From: Edaphobacter lichenicola
GTDB taxonomy: Bacteria > Acidobacteriota > Terriglobia > Terriglobales > Acidobacteriaceae
Length of the DNA: 64,000 bases
Reading direction: 5' to 3'
Assembly: GCF_014201315.1 (NCBI RefSeq)
Contig: NZ_JACHDY010000001.1
Span: 186,001-250,000, forward strand
Shown: positions 3,835 to 57,465 of the stretch, piece after piece
Numbering within the stretch: the stretch's first letter is position 1
Layout of the letters: each line of letters begins with the position of its first letter
The notes under the pieces: model-generated
What the model was told of the DNA's origin: nothing
Databases searched by the model: none
Seen by the model: the letters and a program-made list of their open reading frames with translations, nothing else
Position numbers and translations under genes: made by a program

Positions 3835-4908
3835 TCAGAAGGAGATAGGCAGCGTGCGACCCTCCAGAGAACTCTGCCGCGCCATCTCGAGCAGCTTGAT
3901 CGTCCGATAGCCGTCCTCCGGCTTCACGGCCAGCTCAGCCGTACCGTTGATCGCATCGCGAACATTGGCGTAGTAGAAGCGGTAGTCTCCCAGCTCGGTC
4001 CTCACCTTAGTCCGGGTCAGGGTGCCAGGATCATTCGGGTCGGGAGCGACCGTCAGCGTGCCCCAGTGCTCCTCGGCGTCGGCCAGCCACTCCCCCTCGC
4101 CCATGCGTGGCAGCTTCGCTCCACCCAGCAGCGCCGGCTCCTGCGGATCAAGACCAAACTTCTTGAAGCTCCCCCTAGTTCCATGCAGCAGGAACCTCGG
4201 CGCAGCGTCGCAGGCCAACATGCTCGACCGGCAGTGCGCCCGCATCTTCGGATACTCCAGCGTAATGTCGAACGCATCTTCGATATCGGTCGAGTCCCGA
4301 TCCATCCGAACGCTCGCCGTGATCCCCTCCGGCGCGCCAAACAGCGTCAGCACCTGGTCCACAAGGTGAGGAGCAAGGTCGAACAGCAGACCATTACAGC
4401 CGCTCGCTCCCTCCTTCCACGTATTCTCGCGAGGCACCGGCCGGAACCGGTCGAAGTGCGACTCGTACGTCACCAGCCGCCCCACCGACTCGTTCTGCAA
4501 GATCTTCTTCACCGTCAAAAAGTCGCCATCCCAGCGCCGATTATGAAACGGAGCCAGCACTCGCCGCTGCTTCTGCCCAAGCTCCTTCAGCTCCAGCGTC
4601 TCTTCGCTGGTCGCAGCAAAGGGCTTGTCGACGACCACATGCTTGCCCGCCAGCAAAGCCTGCTTCGCCAGGTCGAAGTGAGTCTCGTTCGGTGTTCCCA
4701 CCACCACAAGCTGCACCGCGGGATCGCTCAACGCCTCCTCAAACGACCGCAGAATCCGCGCCGAAGGGTAGGCCTTCGCAGCCTCGTCGCCCCTGCGCTG
4801 GACAATCGCCTCCAGCTTCAGCCCAGGAACAGCACTCACAAAAGGTGCGTGAAACACCTGCCCTGCCAACCCAAACCCGATTACCGCAACGCCAATCTCA
4901 GCAGCCAT
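3835..4908 (-). CDS. Gfo/Idh/MocA family NAD(P)-dependent oxidoreductase
   Basis: A 357-residue dehydrogenase of unknown sugar or polyol substrate. The N-terminus carries a Rossmann motif (GVAVIGFGLAGQ) and the family lysine segment GKHVVVDKPFA at about residues 90-100. The C-terminal half has the alpha/beta dimer and substrate domain, including the HNRRWDGDF segment. It resembles the YdgJ/inositol dehydrogenase-like branch. The start ATG at 4908 is preceded by GAGGAG six bases upstream. A TTG two codons earlier is less likely. It lies 59 bp upstream of argJ on the same strand, but no shared pathway is apparent. Substrate cannot be predicted. Confidence 0.88.
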   Translation of the reverse strand: MAAEIGVAVIGFGLAGQVFHAPFVSAVPGLKLEAIVQRRGDEAAKAYPSARILRSFEEALSDPAVQLVVVGTPNETHFDLAKQALLAGKHVVVDKPFAATSEETLELKELGQKQRRVLAPFHNRRWDGDFLTVKKILQNESVGRLVTYESHFDRFRPVPRENTWKEGASGCNGLLFDLAPHLVDQVLTLFGAPEGITASVRMDRDSTDIEDAFDITLEYPKMRAHCRSSMLACDAAPRFLLHGTRGSFKKFGLDPQEPALLGGAKLPRMGEGEWLADAEEHWGTLTVAPDPNDPGTLTRTKVRTELGDYRFYYANVRDAINGTAELAVKPEDGYRTIKLLEMARQSSLEGRTLPISF

Positions 4909-15419: not shown

Positions 15420-16544
15420 ATGAAGATGACGACAGCTAACCAACATCCCCTTGAAAAGATCTTCGAGAGCCGAATTGCCATAATCGACGGCGCGATGGGC
15501 ACGACGATCCGCACCTACGGCATGAAGGAAGCTGACATCCGCGGCGAGCGATTCAAGGACTCGACCAAGGACCTGCTCAACAACGGTGACCTCTTCTCGT
15601 TGACGCAGCCGAAGATGATCTCCGACATTCATCGCAGGTTCCTGGAAGCCGGAGCGGACATCATCGAGACTAATACCTTCGGCGCGACCAGCATCACCCA
15701 GAGCGAATTCTTCGTAGACGATCCCCGCGAGCACGGCGGCCGCAAAGACCCAGAGTTCTACCAGAAGATCATCGACGATCCGATGCTCAACAATCTCGCA
15801 TGGGAGATCAACGAGCAGTCGTCACGGCAGTGCCGCGAATGGGCCGACCGTGTCGCGAATGAAACCGGACGCCCGCGCTTTGTGGCGGGAGCAATCGGCC
15901 CGCTGACCGTCTCTCTCTCGAACTCCCCCGACGCCGACGACGCCGGCTTCCGTGTCGTCACGTTCGATCAGGTGAAAAACGCCTACATGCAGCAGGTGCG
16001 TGCGCTCATCGCAGGCGGCTCTGATCTCTTGCTGGTCGAGACAATCTTCGACTCTCTGAACGCCAAGGCCGCACTCGTCGCTATCCGCGAGGTCTTCGAT
16101 CAGGACGGCCTCACTGCGAGCAACAAGGAACTGCCAGTGATGATCTCCGCAGCAGTCGGACGCGGCGGCGAGACGCTCATCTCCGCGCAGACCACGGAAG
16201 CCTTCTGGAACGCAGTCCAGCACGTGAAGCCCCTGTCCGTCGGGCTCAACTGCTCTCTCGGCCCCGATCTGATGTATCCGTTCCTGGACGAGCTCGCAAC
16301 GAAGGCGGACGTGGCGATCTCGTGCTACCCGAATGCAGGCCTGCCGAATCCTCTCTCCGAGACCGGGTTCGATCTAGGGCCGCAGGACATGGCCCGTTAT
16401 CTCGGTGACTTTGCGCGGGCAGGCTTGATCAACATCGCCGGCGGCTGCTGCGGCAACACGCCCGAGCACATCGCAGCGATCGCCAAGGCACTCGAAGGCC
16501 AGCCGCCGCGACAATTGACCCGCCAGATCGAGCGTGCCGCGTGA
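15420..16544 (+). CDS. metH: methionine synthase, homocysteine-binding half (split MetH, N-terminal part)
   Basis: Homocysteine S-methyltransferase domain of cobalamin-dependent methionine synthase, 374 residues. Hallmarks are [15 protein letters not shown], the [15 protein letters not shown] segment, and the zinc cysteines in GLNCSLG (about residue 276) and GGCCGN (about 343-344). In most bacteria this domain is fused to the folate, B12 and activation domains. Here those are the next gene, whose GTG overlaps this stop in GTGA. The leader (15318-15419) contains a 7-bp hairpin GGAGAGC/GCTCTCC, but no riboswitch class could be assigned. Confidence 0.93.
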
Positions 16545-19258
16545 GTGTAAGCGCAGCCGAGCCCATCAACCCCAAGCCGCTCCGCCTCTCTGGATCACAG
16601 CCCTTCACCCAGCAGGCTGGCGTCTTCATCATGATCGGCGAACGGACCAACGTTGCAGGCTCGCCGAAGTTCGCGAAGCTGGTCAAAGAGGGCAAGTACG
16701 AAGAAGCAGTCAGGATTGCCCGGCAGCAGGTTGAGAACGGCGCCAACGTCCTCGACATCTGCATGGACGAAGGTATGATCGACGGCGTTGCCGCCATGAC
16801 GCGCTACCTGCAGTTGCTGGCGAGCGAGCCCGAAGTCGCCAAGGTCCCCTTCATGATCGACTCCTCAAAGTGGGAGGTCATCGAAGCCGGACTCAAATGC
16901 CTGCAGGGCAAGGGCATCGTGAACTCGATCTCGCTCAAAGAGGGCGAAGAGAAGTTTAGCCAGAACGCTGCGACTGTGCTGAAGTACGGCGCAGCCGTCG
17001 TCGTGATGGCCTTCGACGAGCAGGGCCAGGCTGCAACGTACGAGGAGAAGATCCGTATCTGCCAACGCGCTCACCGGATCCTCGTTGACGAGGTAGGCTT
17101 CCCGCCCGAAGACATCATCTTCGATCCAAACATCCTTACCGTCGCCACCGGCATGGAGGAGCACAACAACTATGCCGTCGACTTCATCAATGCCACGCGC
17201 TGGATCAAGGCCAACCTGCCTCACGCGAAGGTGAGTGGCGGCGTCTCGAACATCTCCTTCAGCTTCCGCGGCAACAACAAGGTTCGCGAGGCCATGCACT
17301 CGGCGTTTCTCTATCACGCCATCGCCGCCGGCCTGGACATGGGAATCGTGAACGCCGGAATCCTCGAGGTCTACGAGGAGATCGACCCCGAGCTGAAAGT
17401 CTTAGTCGAAGACGTTCTACTCAACCGCCGTCCCGACGCGACCGAGCGTCTGGTGGAGCACGGCGAATCGCTGAAGCACGTTGGTTCGGTGGTAAGCGAA
17501 AAGAAGGCCGAAGAGTGGCGCAACGGCACGGTCGAGGAGCGTCTCTCCCACGCCCTCGTCAAAGGGATCGACACCTTCATCGAGCTCGACGCCGAAGAAG
17601 CTCGCGTCAAGCTTGGCCGTCCTCTGTTGGTCATCGAAGGTCCGCTGATGGACGGAATGGGCGTAGTAGGCGATCTCTTCGGAGCCGGAAAGATGTTCCT
17701 CCCCCAGGTCGTCAAGTCCGCCCGTGTCATGAAGAAGGCCGTCGCGCATCTGACCCCGTTCATGGAGGCCGAAAAAGCCGAGATGGCCGCCTCGGGCCAG
17801 GTCGTCAAGGCCCAGGGAAAGATCCTTCTCGCAACCGTCAAGGGTGACGTTCACGACATCGGCAAGAACATCGTCGGCGTCGTCCTGGCCTGCAATAACT
17901 ACGAGGTCATCGACATGGGCGTGATGGTCTCCTCCGAGAAGATCCTCGAACGCGCCAAAGCGGAGAAGGTAGATCTCATCGGCCTCAGCGGTCTCATCAC
18001 GCCCTCTCTCGATGAGATGGTCCATGTGGCCCGCGAGATGGAACGCCAGGGCTTCAAACTGCCGTTGCTCATCGGCGGCGCAACCACCAGCCGCAGACAC
18101 ACAGCCATCAAGATCGCGCCGCACTACAGCGAGCCGGTGGTCCACATCCTCGACGCCAGCCGCGCAGTACCCGTCACGACCAGCCTTCTCAGCGACGAAG
18201 GCAAGCCCGCGTTCGTCGCGCAGCACCGCACCGAATACGAGGCCCTCCGCGCCGCCCACTCCGCGCCACGCCAGACGGTAATTTCCCTTGAGGCCGCTCG
18301 CACCAGACGGACTCCGATTGAGTGGCGCGCCGAAGACGTACCCGCACCCGCGTTCACCGGTGTACGTGTGCTCGACAACTTTCCTCTGGCCACGCTGCGC
18401 GAGTACATCGACTGGTCGCCGCTCTTTCACGCCTGGGGCCTGAAGGGCGTCTACCCTCGCATCCTCGAACACGAGCAGCAGGGCGAGCAGGCCCGTCAGA
18501 TCTTCGCCGACGCCAATACTCTGCTTGATCGCATCATCGAGAAGAACCTGATCAATGCGCGCGGCGTCTACGGCTTCTTTCCCGCCAGCGCAGTTGGCGA
18601 CGATGTGGCGCTCTACTCAGACGACACACGCAAGACAGAGCTCGACCGCTTTCACTTCCTACGCCAGCAGGCAAACAAGGAAGGGAGCGAGCCATGTCGA
18701 TCTCTCGCCGACTTCATTGCTCCCAAAGAAACGGAGTTGCCCGATCACATCGGCGCCTTCGCTGTGACCACCGGCATCGGCCTGAAGGAGCTCTGCGATC
18801 GCTTCCGGGCCGACAATGACGACTACAACGCCATCATGGCCGAGGCTGTCGCTGATCGCCTCGCAGAAGCCTTCGCTGAGTGCCTGCACAAGCGCGTCCG
18901 GGATGAGTGGGGTTACGGGCTTGAAGAAGGTCTCACTCCCGCCGATCTCATTCAGGAGAAGTATCGCGGTATCCGGCCTGCCGCGGGTTATCCGGCCTGC
19001 CCCGACCACACCGAGAAGGGCATCCTCTGGCGTCTGCTCGACGTGCAAGCCAACACCGGCATGTTGATTACGGAGTCGTTTGCGATGTGGCCCGGCTCGA
19101 GCGTAAGTGGACTCTACTTCGCGCACCCGGAATCGCGTTACTTCAGCCTTGGCAAGATCGACCGCGATCAGGTGGCCGACTATCATGAGCGCAAGGGGAT
19201 GAGCGTGGCTGAGGTCGAACGGTGGCTAGGCCAGAACCTGAACTACGATCCCGAGTAA
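16541..19258 (+). CDS. metH: methionine synthase, folate/B12/SAM-activation half (split MetH, C-terminal part)
   Basis: A 905-residue protein with the remaining three MetH modules. Residues 1-300 are the methyltetrahydrofolate (pterin-binding) domain ([31 protein letters not shown]). About 330-620 is the cobalamin module with the cap helices and DVHDIGKN (DxHxxG, about 436-441), [13 protein letters not shown] and GGATTS. The C-terminal activation domain ends in [10 protein letters not shown] and [15 protein letters not shown]. It catalyses methyl transfer from methyl-THF via methylcobalamin to homocysteine presented by the partner gene. It starts at GTG 16541, overlapping the upstream stop by four bases, which implies tight translational coupling and assembly of the two chains. 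Confidence 0.94.
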
Positions 19259-20326: not shown

Positions 20327-20450
20327 GAATTTCATGCAGAGTGGTTGAGGGACGAGCCCTTTGACGCCACGACAACCGGACAGAACAAAGGCGTACCGGT
20401 GTCAACTCTCTCCTGGGGGCTTTTGGGCTGCTACAGGGAACATGAGATTC
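20327..20450 (+). promoter_or_regulatory. SAM-I-type (S-box) riboswitch aptamer
   Basis: All four aptamer helices can be drawn. P1: GAATTTCATG (20327-20336) with CATGAGATTC (20441-20450), ten pairs with one wobble. Then AGAG and P2 GTGG (20341-20344) with CCAC (20367-20370), closing the conserved core GAGGGACGAGCCC with GGG/CCC as inner stem. P3: GACaACC (20371-20377) with GGTGTC (20398-20403), a compensated version of the usual GCaACC/GGUGC. P4: CCTG (20412-20415) with CAGG (20434-20437). The conserved ACAACC and GGTGTCAA segments match S-box RNAs. The element would sense S-adenosylmethionine and control thrC, 120 bases downstream. Confidence 0.87.
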
Positions 20451-20548
20451 GGAGCACGCAAGCCCGAAATCCAGGTTTGCACCCCGCATTTCATCTTCCT
20501 AGCCTATCCGGCGCCCCCCAAAAAGAGAGTAAGCGCAAAAAGTTCACC

Positions 20549-20564
20549 CTTTCCCCTCGGAAAG
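20549..20564 (+). promoter_or_regulatory. hairpin masking the thrC ribosome-binding site
   Basis: CTTTCC (20549-20554) pairs with GGAAAG (20559-20564) across a four-base loop. GGAAAG is the Shine-Dalgarno sequence, six bases before the ATG at 20571. No intrinsic terminator is visible between aptamer and gene, so control of translation initiation is the likelier mode. Confidence 0.6.
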
Positions 20565-20570
20565 AGCACG

Positions 20571-21857
20571 ATGAACTACTCCTGTAGCCGGTACGAGCTG
20601 AAGTGCAACGAGTGCGGCAAGCGGTTCGGCAACCAACCCCTCTCCGCCTGCCCCGATTGCCTCGCCCCCCTTGAAATCGCCTATGACCTCGAGGCCGCCC
20701 GAGGCATCTTCACCAAGGAAAACATCGCAGCCGGCCCGGCCAGCATCTGGCGTTACACCGCTCTCCTCCCCATCCCCGAAGGCTTCGAGCCCGATCTTCC
20801 GGTAGGCTTCACCCCGCTCGTTCGCGCAAAGAATCTCGGCAAGCGCATCGGCGCCTCCAATCTCTACATCAAGAACGACGCCGTCTGCTTCCCGACTCTC
20901 AGCTTCAAAGATCGTGTCGTCTCCGTCGCGCTCGCCAATGCGCAGAAGTTCGGCTTCGAGATCGTCGGCTGCTCCTCGACCGGCAACCTCGCTAACTCCG
21001 TCGCCGCGCAGGCCGCCCGTCTCGGCCTCAAGGCCACCATCCTCGTCCCCGCCGACCTCGAACCCGCCAAGATTCTCAACACCCTGGTCTACGGCGCGCG
21101 CCTCATCCGCATCGACGGCAACTACGACCACGTCAACCGCCTCTGCACCCAGATCGCCGACGAGTACGCCTGGGGTCTCGTCAACGTAAACCTCCGTCCC
21201 TACTACGCCGAAGGCTCGAAGACCGTAGGCTACGAGATCGCCGAGCAACTCGGGTGGCGTCTCCCCGACAACGTCGTCGTCCCCATGGCCGGCGGTTCAC
21301 TCATCCGCAAAATTCGCAAGGCCTTTCAGGAGTTGATCGATCTGGGGTTGGTTGACGCCAAGCCCGTCCGCTTCTTCGGTGCCCAGGCCTCCGGCTGCTC
21401 GCCCATCTCGGTCGCCGTCAAAGAGGGAACCGACTACATCGAGCCGCAGCGCCCCAACACTATCGCCCGCTCACTAGCCATCGGCAACCCAGCTGACGGC
21501 CCCGCTGCGGCGAAGATGATCCGCAGCACAGGCGGCTGGGCAGAGGATGTCTCCGACGTCGAAATCGTCTCAGGCATCCAGGAACTCGCCGAAACCGAAG
21601 GCATCTTCACCGAAACCGCCGGCGGCGTCACCACCGCCGTCACCGCGCGCCTCTACGCCGACGGCCGCATCTCCCCCGACGAAATCACGGTCACCTGCAT
21701 CACCGGCAACGGGCTCAAAACCACCGACGCACTCGCCCACAGCTACTCGCATCTCAACGCCCGTGCCGTCCGCCCGCGACTCGCAGACTTCGACGCCTAC
21801 CTTCGCGAACTCGATGGAATCACAGAGCCAGAACTGGCCACAGCAGGAGCCCTCTAA
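20571..21857 (+). CDS. thrC: threonine synthase-like PLP enzyme under a SAM riboswitch
   Basis: A 428-residue fold-type II PLP enzyme. An N-terminal zinc-ribbon-like pair (CNECGKRF and CPDC, residues about 11-30) precedes the catalytic core. The Schiff-base lysine is in LSFKDR (Lys113). The phosphate-loop region reads CSSTGNLANSVAA, and GGSLIRKI lies later. Classical threonine synthases convert O-phosphohomoserine to threonine and usually show GNTSAS rather than GNLANS, so this belongs to a divergent subgroup. Control by a SAM riboswitch and a one-base overlap (TAATG) with a sulfur-carrier gene suggest a link to sulfur amino acids. Threonine synthase is the standard call; a role in homocysteine formation is a hypothesis. 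Confidence 0.85.
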   Translation: MNYSCSRYELKCNECGKRFGNQPLSACPDCLAPLEIAYDLEAARGIFTKENIAAGPASIWRYTALLPIPEGFEPDLPVGFTPLVRAKNLGKRIGASNLYIKNDAVCFPTLSFKDRVVSVALANAQKFGFEIVGCSSTGNLANSVAAQAARLGLKATILVPADLEPAKILNTLVYGARLIRIDGNYDHVNRLCTQIADEYAWGLVNVNLRPYYAEGSKTVGYEIAEQLGWRLPDNVVVPMAGGSLIRKIRKAFQELIDLGLVDAKPVRFFGAQASGCSPISVAVKEGTDYIEPQRPNTIARSLAIGNPADGPAAAKMIRSTGGWAEDVSDVEIVSGIQELAETEGIFTETAGGVTTAVTARLYADGRISPDEITVTCITGNGLKTTDALAHSYSHLNARAVRPRLADFDAYLRELDGITEPELATAGAL

Positions 21858-22138
21858 TGTCTATCAAAGTCACCCTCCCCACTGCCTTCGTCCGCCACAC
21901 CGATGGCCGCAAGCACTTCAACTCCGCAGCCTCCAATCTCCCCGGCCTCATCGCCGACATCGACCAGACGTTCCCCGCGCTCTCGACCCAGATCAAGGAT
22001 GAAGAAGGCAAGCTCCGCCGCTTCATCAACATCTACGTCAACGACGAAGACATCCGCTTCCTCGGTGGCGAAACCTACGCTTTCCAGGATGGCGACGAGA
22101 TAATGCTCATCCCCTCCATCGCCGGTGGCTGCATCTAG
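21857..22138 (+). CDS. MoaD/ThiS-like sulfur-carrier protein with a C-terminal Cys-Ile extension
   Basis: A 93-residue ubiquitin-fold protein. Motifs FINIYVNDEDIRFL and DGDEIMLIPSIAGG match the CysO/MoaD group, whose terminal Gly-Gly is adenylated and turned into a thiocarboxylate sulfur donor. Here Gly90-Gly91 is followed by Cys92-Ile93, so the tail would need trimming before activation. QbsE, which ends GGCF and is processed by the JAMM protease QbsD, is a known parallel. No ThiF/MoeB-like activator or JAMM protease is in the window. It starts one base into the thrC stop, implying coupled translation and function with that enzyme. Confidence 0.88.
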   Translation: MSIKVTLPTAFVRHTDGRKHFNSAASNLPGLIADIDQTFPALSTQIKDEEGKLRRFINIYVNDEDIRFLGGETYAFQDGDEIMLIPSIAGGCI

Positions 22139-57391: not shown

Positions 57392-57465
57392 TGCCCCCTA
57401 GTTCAATGGTAGAACAGTCGGCTCTGAACCGATCAATCGGGGTTCGAATCCCTGGGGGGCAACCA
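57392..57465 (+). tRNA. tRNA-Gln (anticodon CTG)
   Basis: Complete cloverleaf: acceptor TGCCCCC with GGGGGCA, D-arm GTTC/GAAC, anticodon stem GTCGG/CCGAT (last pair non-standard), loop CTCTGAA with anticodon CTG at 57424-57426, T-arm CGGGG-TTCGAAT-CCCTG, discriminator A and encoded CCA (57463-57465). Confidence 0.96.

Follow-up and report, generated by a model that had tools for sequence, protein, structure and literature searches.

The window analyzed here is a stretch of 64,000 nucleotides from the acidobacterium Edaphobacter lichenicola (contig NZ_JACHDY010000001.1, positions 186,001 to 250,000, forward strand). Within it lies a short operon in which an S-adenosylmethionine (SAM) riboswitch precedes the genes for a threonine-synthase-like enzyme and a sulfur carrier, resembling the metM-metO pair of Streptomyces albulus. 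The locus comprises four features:

20329 to 20448, plus strand: SAM-I (S-box) riboswitch aptamer (RF00162; cmscan 64.9 bits, E 7.8e-13, model positions 1-108 of 108)
20549 to 20564, plus strand: Shine-Dalgarno hairpin CTTTCC-CCTC-GGAAAG, from the predicted fold; probable translational expression platform
20571 to 21857, plus strand: metM-like gene, predicted homocysteine synthase (PF00291, 222 bits; TIGR00260, 281.6 bits)
21857 to 22138, plus strand: metO-like gene, beta-grasp sulfur carrier, CysO-like, ending AGG-CI (PF02597, E 1.7e-10)

The original prediction, made from the letters of the DNA, had placed a complete S-box and a hairpin masking the Shine-Dalgarno region upstream of the enzyme gene, and both were recovered. 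The covariance search matched RF00162 over its full length, well above the gathering score of 44.4, and in a genome-wide scan with stricter filters, in which weak matches can be lost, this aptamer was the single RF00162 match. The hairpin has six pairs and spans the Shine-Dalgarno region. Hairpins of this type (score of at least 10) recur with changed sequences, such as CTCTCC/GGAGAG, in 16 of 17 genus-level loci, and the 17 loci average a score of 12.4, whereas 200 mononucleotide shuffles average 4.5 and never exceed 7.1. Pairing was judged here by hairpin count, the MAFFT alignment of the region being too gappy for counting pairs. A promoter scan found no sigma-70-type site; the terminator-like sites that it gave, two against 0.8 expected, lie on the minus strand. 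The leader is probably a SAM-responsive switch with the hairpin as its platform.

Enzyme and carrier frames share a single base in the stop/start overlap TAATG, as had been read originally. The metM-like product is a threonine-synthase-like, pyridoxal phosphate (PLP)-dependent enzyme of the PALP fold, whose N-terminal cysteine pairs resemble a zinc ribbon. Among the matches listed, its closest named homologue comes from Edaphobacter lichenicola (98%); it is 53% identical to a SAM-riboswitch-controlled homologue from Nonomuraea and 32% identical to the ThrC of its own genome. A maximum-likelihood tree of 32 rows splits 23 MetM-like rows, among them the SAM-riboswitch-controlled actinobacterial protein, from nine ThrC rows with support of 100/99, and the window enzyme falls with the former; ThrC row L286 is long-branched in this tree, and two candidates, L284 and L287, which the motif missed, were left out (L and G numbers are our labels for loci and genomes). 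The enzyme carries the motifs PTLSFKDRV and STGNLANS, and the ThrC-type PTGSFKD and GNTS-type motifs were not found in it. PTLSFKDR and STGNLAN are invariant across nine aligned MetM-like proteins, with the variants PTF, PTH, GNLGN and GNLAG in the wider tree set. The GNLANS loop, once taken for atypical, is thus present but is the usual signature of the MetM-like family, given its invariance in the nine proteins. By tree, motifs and identities, the window enzyme is placed in the MetM lineage, outside ThrC.

Enzymes of this kind have been described. According to the text available to us of PMC12172450, which cites their work, Hasebe et al. (2024, doi 10.1128/aem.01247-24), whose title names O-phospho-L-homoserine, report the homocysteine synthase MetM and its carrier MetO in S. 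albulus; the Streptomyces enzyme is reported to have homocysteine synthase activity and to prevent methionine auxotrophy, and a SAM riboswitch is said to lie upstream of metM. In the same text a gene beside thrC of Microcystis, with a sulfur carrier annotation, is likened to S. albulus metO. A Nonomuraea record has the layout of the window, with RF00162 (68.7 bits), a MetM-like enzyme and a carrier that ends at a bare Gly-Gly. SAM control had been thought to be the new part of the window locus; in view of the S. albulus report and the Nonomuraea layout, this control and the hypothesis as a whole are already in print for another phylum. The window thus shares with S. albulus the ThrC-like homocysteine synthase, the carrier and the upstream SAM riboswitch, as far as PMC12172450 describes them. 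It differs in being acidobacterial, in its capped carrier and in the SAM-II-like switch of some relatives, where the carrier would be a pre-protein. The locus is very probably a MetM-MetO homocysteine synthase under SAM control, a kind of system already known, which these three points extend.

The genome itself is informative about the surrounding metabolism. Three of its nine PALP matches are ThrC-like. One is a separate ThrC on contig C3, over the TIGR00260 cut-off with 277.8 bits and followed by ThrB (220.5 bits, cut-off 168.25), so that the second, classical thrC that had been proposed as a check does exist. A further threonine-synthase-like gene lies at L151:7017-8291 (G000, contig C6); it scores 514.6 against a PRK08197 cut-off of 303 and has the motifs PTGTFKARG and AGNAAG. 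Family searches of this genome gave no MetA-type HTS, no HcyBio match and no convincing MetX. For MetX there was only a partial match, of 105.7 bits, and the protein concerned has as its top NCBIfam hit a hypothetical family whose cut-off it does not reach. Neither of its full-length Cys_Met_Meta_PP proteins scores best as MetY, nine further partial matches lying outside that comparison. The JAMM protease and the ThiF/MoeB-type activators expected of such a system were found: a cysM-mec-cysO-moeZ cluster on contig C6, separate from metM-metO and with its own carrier, encodes MoeZ (E1-like plus rhodanese) and holds the single JAMM match of the genome, next to homoserine dehydrogenase.

We then compared 41 genomes, this one and 40 relatives, calling MetM at E <=1e-60, ThrC at E <=1e-100 and strong MetX above 340 bits. 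MetM is present in 34 of them. RF00162, scanned with the stricter filters mentioned above, occurs once each in 32 genomes, all of which have MetM, and in none of the seven that lack it (Fisher 1.6e-6; these tests treat related species as independent). By coordinates the aptamer stands just upstream of metM on the same contig in 30 of the 32, and on a separate contig in G020 and G036; MetM without SAM-I was seen in G013, where metM is cut by the contig end, and in G040. ThrC was matched in 38 of the 41 genomes, and five of the seven that lack MetM are among these; the exceptions are G034, G038 and G040. In six sister-family genomes (G029-G032, G036 and G037) thrC and the riboswitch stand on opposite strands, no more than about 1.1 kb apart. 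MetA-type HTS is found in 4/41 genomes, and the HcyBio route, which was also considered, in 0/41. Strong MetX occurs in eight genomes, four of the seven without MetM against four of the 34 with it (Fisher 0.018); among the 29 genomes at least 90% complete the ratio is 2/2 to 4/27 (Fisher 0.037). Its gene sits beside a MetY-type gene in the MetM-lacking G004, G008, G017 and G022, which may form one lineage, and in the MetM-bearing G011; MetY was assigned in G017 by family scan (732.7, cut-off 726) and by eye in the other four neighbourhoods.

The control of metM is more varied than the window alone would suggest. A collection scan found a relative encoded in at least 585 of 588 stretches; the 80 best loci were retained and named. 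RF00162 was matched in 25 of the 33 named acidobacterial loci, L162, L173 and L190 offering at most about 210 bases upstream of metM. L171, L175, L176, L182 and L186 gave no SAM-I match even with E allowed up to 1, and G040 gave none either. Upstream of metM in these six there is a 38-nt core, GATTTA(A/G)GGCAACTTGCTCCACGTAAAAAACTGCTAAA, a pattern that did not turn up ahead of metM when the other 75 named loci were searched. The SAM-II model RF00521 matches five of the six leaders with 25.7, 24.8, 23.3, 23.2 and 23.0 bits, all below its gathering score of 36; L186 was not listed at E up to 1 and is known by the core pattern only. Over 45 aligned columns all but one position are invariant across the six loci. 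The SAM-II-like leaders lie at L157:2339-2411, L171:3773-3844, L175:3772-3842, L176:3779-3850, L182:3618-3688 and, in L186, upstream of position 4001.

A scan placed a terminator-like hairpin 3' of the core in G040, L171, L175, L176 and L186; in L182 the switch lies further upstream, beyond the reach of the scan, and the alignment shows the same kind of terminator-like sequence. The SAM-I leaders also differ among themselves: terminator-like hairpins follow the aptamer in 10/10 sister-family loci scanned versus 3/17 in the window's own genus, which has the Shine-Dalgarno hairpin instead. Because SAM-I and SAM-II-like aptamers, and terminators and Shine-Dalgarno hairpins, alternate before metM, riboswitch class and platform appear to change while the controlled gene stays. 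Outside Acidobacteriota, SAM-I precedes metM in a planctomycete (L199) and in RI_372 (L220). SAM-II (SAM_alpha, RF00521) leaders are documented before metA and metZ of S. meliloti in the available part of PMC9373788, and the six acidobacterial leaders resemble them in the core, followed by the terminator-like hairpin, at the low bit scores given above. A SAM-II-like switch before metM in Acidobacteriota is apparently new; the literature consulted held no report of it or of a capped MetO, which is weak evidence as few subscription papers were covered.

Among solved structures, the best relative of the metO product is M. tuberculosis CysO (3dwg_C, E 9.3e-21), and the carrier is 37% identical to that of Nonomuraea. 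metO was found in 78 of the 80 named metM loci, in L190 and L225 not immediately adjacent. The Gly-Gly-Cys-Ile tail that drew attention originally is real (AGGCI) but not special, since tails vary freely on MetO and on other carriers. In 30 relative loci (L057-L086), 28 carriers extend past the Gly-Gly, one (G040) is bare and one (L073) unreadable. Some tails start with Cys (CI, CV, CC, C); others read SR, IA, A, TA, SA, R, K or AN, and that of L166 has 42 residues. Over the named loci, MetO is extended in 0/38 cyanobacteria, 28/32 Acidobacteriota and 5/8 others, counts that omit one acidobacterial and one other locus without metO. In the L073 carrier frame, LIPVMLIPRLRAV stands in place of LIPSIAGG, pointing to a damaged gene or an assembly error; its host G009 also has a strong MetX match.

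The remaining carriers of the lineage, binned by best score, are capped as well. Distinct C-termini are extended in 23/23 cases for CysO, 33/35 for MoaD and, beyond GGG, the native end of ThiS, 32/40 for ThiS, where seven end at GGG and one is unread; some sister-family CysO landed in the MetO bin, as did the bare G039 carrier L338. Besides MetO this genome encodes three ThiS-family carriers, to which we gave names by eye, from their gene neighbours and from the fusions seen in relatives: CysO with the cap TSCRL, MoaD with VESRFEGQDAG and ThiS with one residue past GGG. In other Acidobacteriota the frame runs on after Gly-Gly into an enzyme, giving MoaD-MoaE in L026, L030, L312 and L315, CysO joined to MoeZ or a ThiF part in L096, L098 and L105, and ThiS-ThiG in L324. 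Pfam confirmed eight of eight fusions tested; the fetched stretch truncates some of the frames. Cleavage of a MoaD-MoaE fusion has been reported for a JAMM from Deinococcus (PMC8832034, available in part). That caps vary on all four carrier types and are sometimes fused domains suggests that one JAMM peptidase trims them, and one JAMM acting on all four carriers would be the simplest reading. Across genomes we expected caps to track the presence of JAMM. A strong match (E <1e-15) occurs in 25/25 capped-carrier genomes against 19/25 bare-carrier genomes (Fisher 0.022, covering 50 of the 80 named loci), and in 15/18 of the cyanobacteria although their carriers are bare; the link is weak, as so many bare-carrier genomes also have a strong JAMM.

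Some of the metabolic neighbours of metM elsewhere are in keeping with the pathway proposed below; in most of the compared loci no match to any of the 12 query genes was seen, partly owing to short flanks. In L193 and L207 the order metM-metO-thrB follows a SAM-I switch, and in L195 thrB comes after metM. L192 has metM-metO, a moeB type, thrB and an aspartate-kinase-like gene (the last by eye), L191 and L202 have metM-metO, a moeB type and cysM, and L215 has metM-metO and a moeB type. These E1-like neighbours are 43-62% identical to the MoeZ of this genome and, at 267-304 residues, seem to be without its rhodanese domain. A protein of about 80 residues, possibly a NIL-domain protein (by eye), follows these sets of genes at L202:7689-7931 and L215:6313-6552. 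In G040 the metM-metO pair is followed by a protein with a cobalamin-independent methionine synthase domain (105.7 bits, cut-off 21), whose scores with the methionine synthase models of NCBIfam fall short of their cut-offs. MetH matches were seen upstream of metM in at least 8 of 112 loci, a lower bound set by the short flanks; all, the window included, belong to the Edaphobacter group or near it, and L058 and L161 are probably one genome. In the window this neighbour is a methionine synthase split across two overlapping genes, the homocysteine-binding part being separate:

15420 to 16544, plus strand: N-terminal homocysteine-binding part of split MetH (PRK09490, 405 bits, best stretch profile 97-340)
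16541 to 19258, plus strand: rest of MetH (PRK09490 profile 339-1233; TIGR02082, 1196 bits, over cut-off)

The sole other Rfam match at gathering threshold in the window is a tRNA gene at 57392-57462.

We consider it highly probable that the window locus is an acidobacterial metM-metO operon making homocysteine from O-phosphohomoserine under SAM control. The idea that homocysteine is formed from O-phosphohomoserine and carrier-bound sulfide was part of the original prediction, and the comparative evidence lends it support. In the mechanism we propose, homoserine kinase ThrB would supply O-phosphohomoserine, and MetM, like threonine synthase, would form a PLP-bound beta,gamma-unsaturated intermediate, to which it would add sulfide from the C-terminal thiocarboxylate of MetO instead of water. 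MetH would methylate the resulting homocysteine. The Cys-Ile behind the Gly-Gly of MetO would have to be removed before MoeZ loads the sulfur, and the likeliest peptidase for this is the single JAMM found in the genome. With SAM plentiful the S-box would fold and the Shine-Dalgarno hairpin would keep metM-metO untranslated, leaving O-phosphohomoserine to ThrC. Chemistry, switching and trimming are here inferred from anatomy, relatedness, co-occurrence and gene neighbourhoods.

Several observations weigh against this proposal, and some of them favour other explanations. The window enzyme could be a second threonine synthase; the switch would then balance threonine against methionine where their routes part at O-phosphohomoserine, and the carrier would have another task. 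Its TIGR00260 score exceeds the cut-off of 167.1; with 277.8 bits for the ThrC of the same genome, this model does not separate MetM from ThrC. In vitro, the Microcystis homologue, with a reported identity of 51.6% to MetM of Streptomyces, converted O-phosphohomoserine to threonine, and the authors question whether it fully takes the part of MetM inside the cell (PMC12172450, as far as available). G040, listed as 100% complete, has MetM and no ThrC match at E 1e-100, so that MetM or another type of ThrC may have to make threonine there. Yet the canonical thrC-thrB pair of this genome, the wide occurrence of ThrC also where MetM is lacking, and the position of the window enzyme outside the ThrC rows of the tree make a second threonine synthase very unlikely; SAM repression of a threonine synthase would not by itself serve methionine, and the three further ThiS-family carriers and the near-constant company of metO speak against a carrier with another task. 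The assignment to the MetM lineage itself leans on the Nonomuraea homologue and on reported identities rather than on the S. albulus sequence, and in L195 no metO was found beside metM. Nor do gene distributions agree throughout. Four genomes combine MetM with strong MetX, three MetM-lacking genomes (54-85% complete) have neither strong MetX nor HTS, one of them, G007, showing a 147-bit MetX-family match, and the difference in MetX, itself small, may stem from a single lineage. SAM-I was not matched in 7/9 non-acidobacterial, non-cyanobacterial loci or in 5/5 cyanobacteria tested.

Homocysteine might also come through cystathionine, with metM-metO as an accessory or a source of another thiol, if another enzyme of this genome, L010, were a cystathionine gamma-synthase using O-phosphohomoserine. 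L010 possibly is a gamma-synthase: it scores 487 bits with that model (cut-off 513) and 501 with the gamma-lyase model (cut-off 594). It adjoins the cysK-like gene L003, however, and a cysK-like gene beside such an enzyme is the arrangement of reverse transsulfuration; moreover, the one SAM-I match reported for the genome stands before metM. We regard this route as highly improbable. Similar doubt, if marginally less, attaches to a functional Cys-Ile tail, with a sulfur-carrying Cys or a mimic of the product rather than a discarded cap. Cys directly follows the Gly-Gly in several relatives, but the diversity of the other tails, up to the 42 residues of L166, and the 38/38 cyanobacterial carriers that end at Gly-Gly argue against a sequence-specific role; mimicry of the CysO-Cys product was dropped for the same free variation.

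Other carrier systems resemble the proposed metM-metO operon in part. The CysM-CysO-Mec-MoeZ system of the M. tuberculosis type, a cysteine route, comes close in carrier sequence and in the JAMM and MoeZ that the genome encodes, but the partner of the window carrier is ThrC-like, the carrier is encoded apart from CysM and Mec, and the genome has a separate cluster of that kind. QbsE-QbsD, from another pathway, has a similar GG-Cys-X tail trimmed by a JAMM, while the tail sequence of the window carrier is not conserved among relatives. In HcyS-HcyD-HcyF with MetY, sulfide bound to a JAMM-trimmed carrier goes to homocysteine, as proposed here, with MetY and an acylhomoserine as acceptor where the window has a ThrC-like partner. 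The HcyS system of Wolinella is mentioned in PMC5764234, which was available in part.

The occurrence of SAM-I and SAM-II-like switches on one gene is strong evidence, free of chemistry, for a methionine role of metM. The proposed pathway suggests a methionine route for bacteria that gave no match to MetA or HcyBio and no strong match to MetX, and where pathway predictors may see a gap because a curated model calls the metM product a threonine synthase. Capped carriers, in turn, suggest that one peptidase controls several sulfur pathways. With chances that we see as evenly balanced, a broader picture may hold for this lineage: the four carriers ThiS, MoaD, CysO and MetO would mostly be pre-proteins with free-form caps or fused enzymes, a single JAMM would gate sulfur for thiamine, molybdopterin, cysteine and methionine, and either of two unrelated SAM riboswitch classes, replacing each other before metM, would guard the methionine branch.

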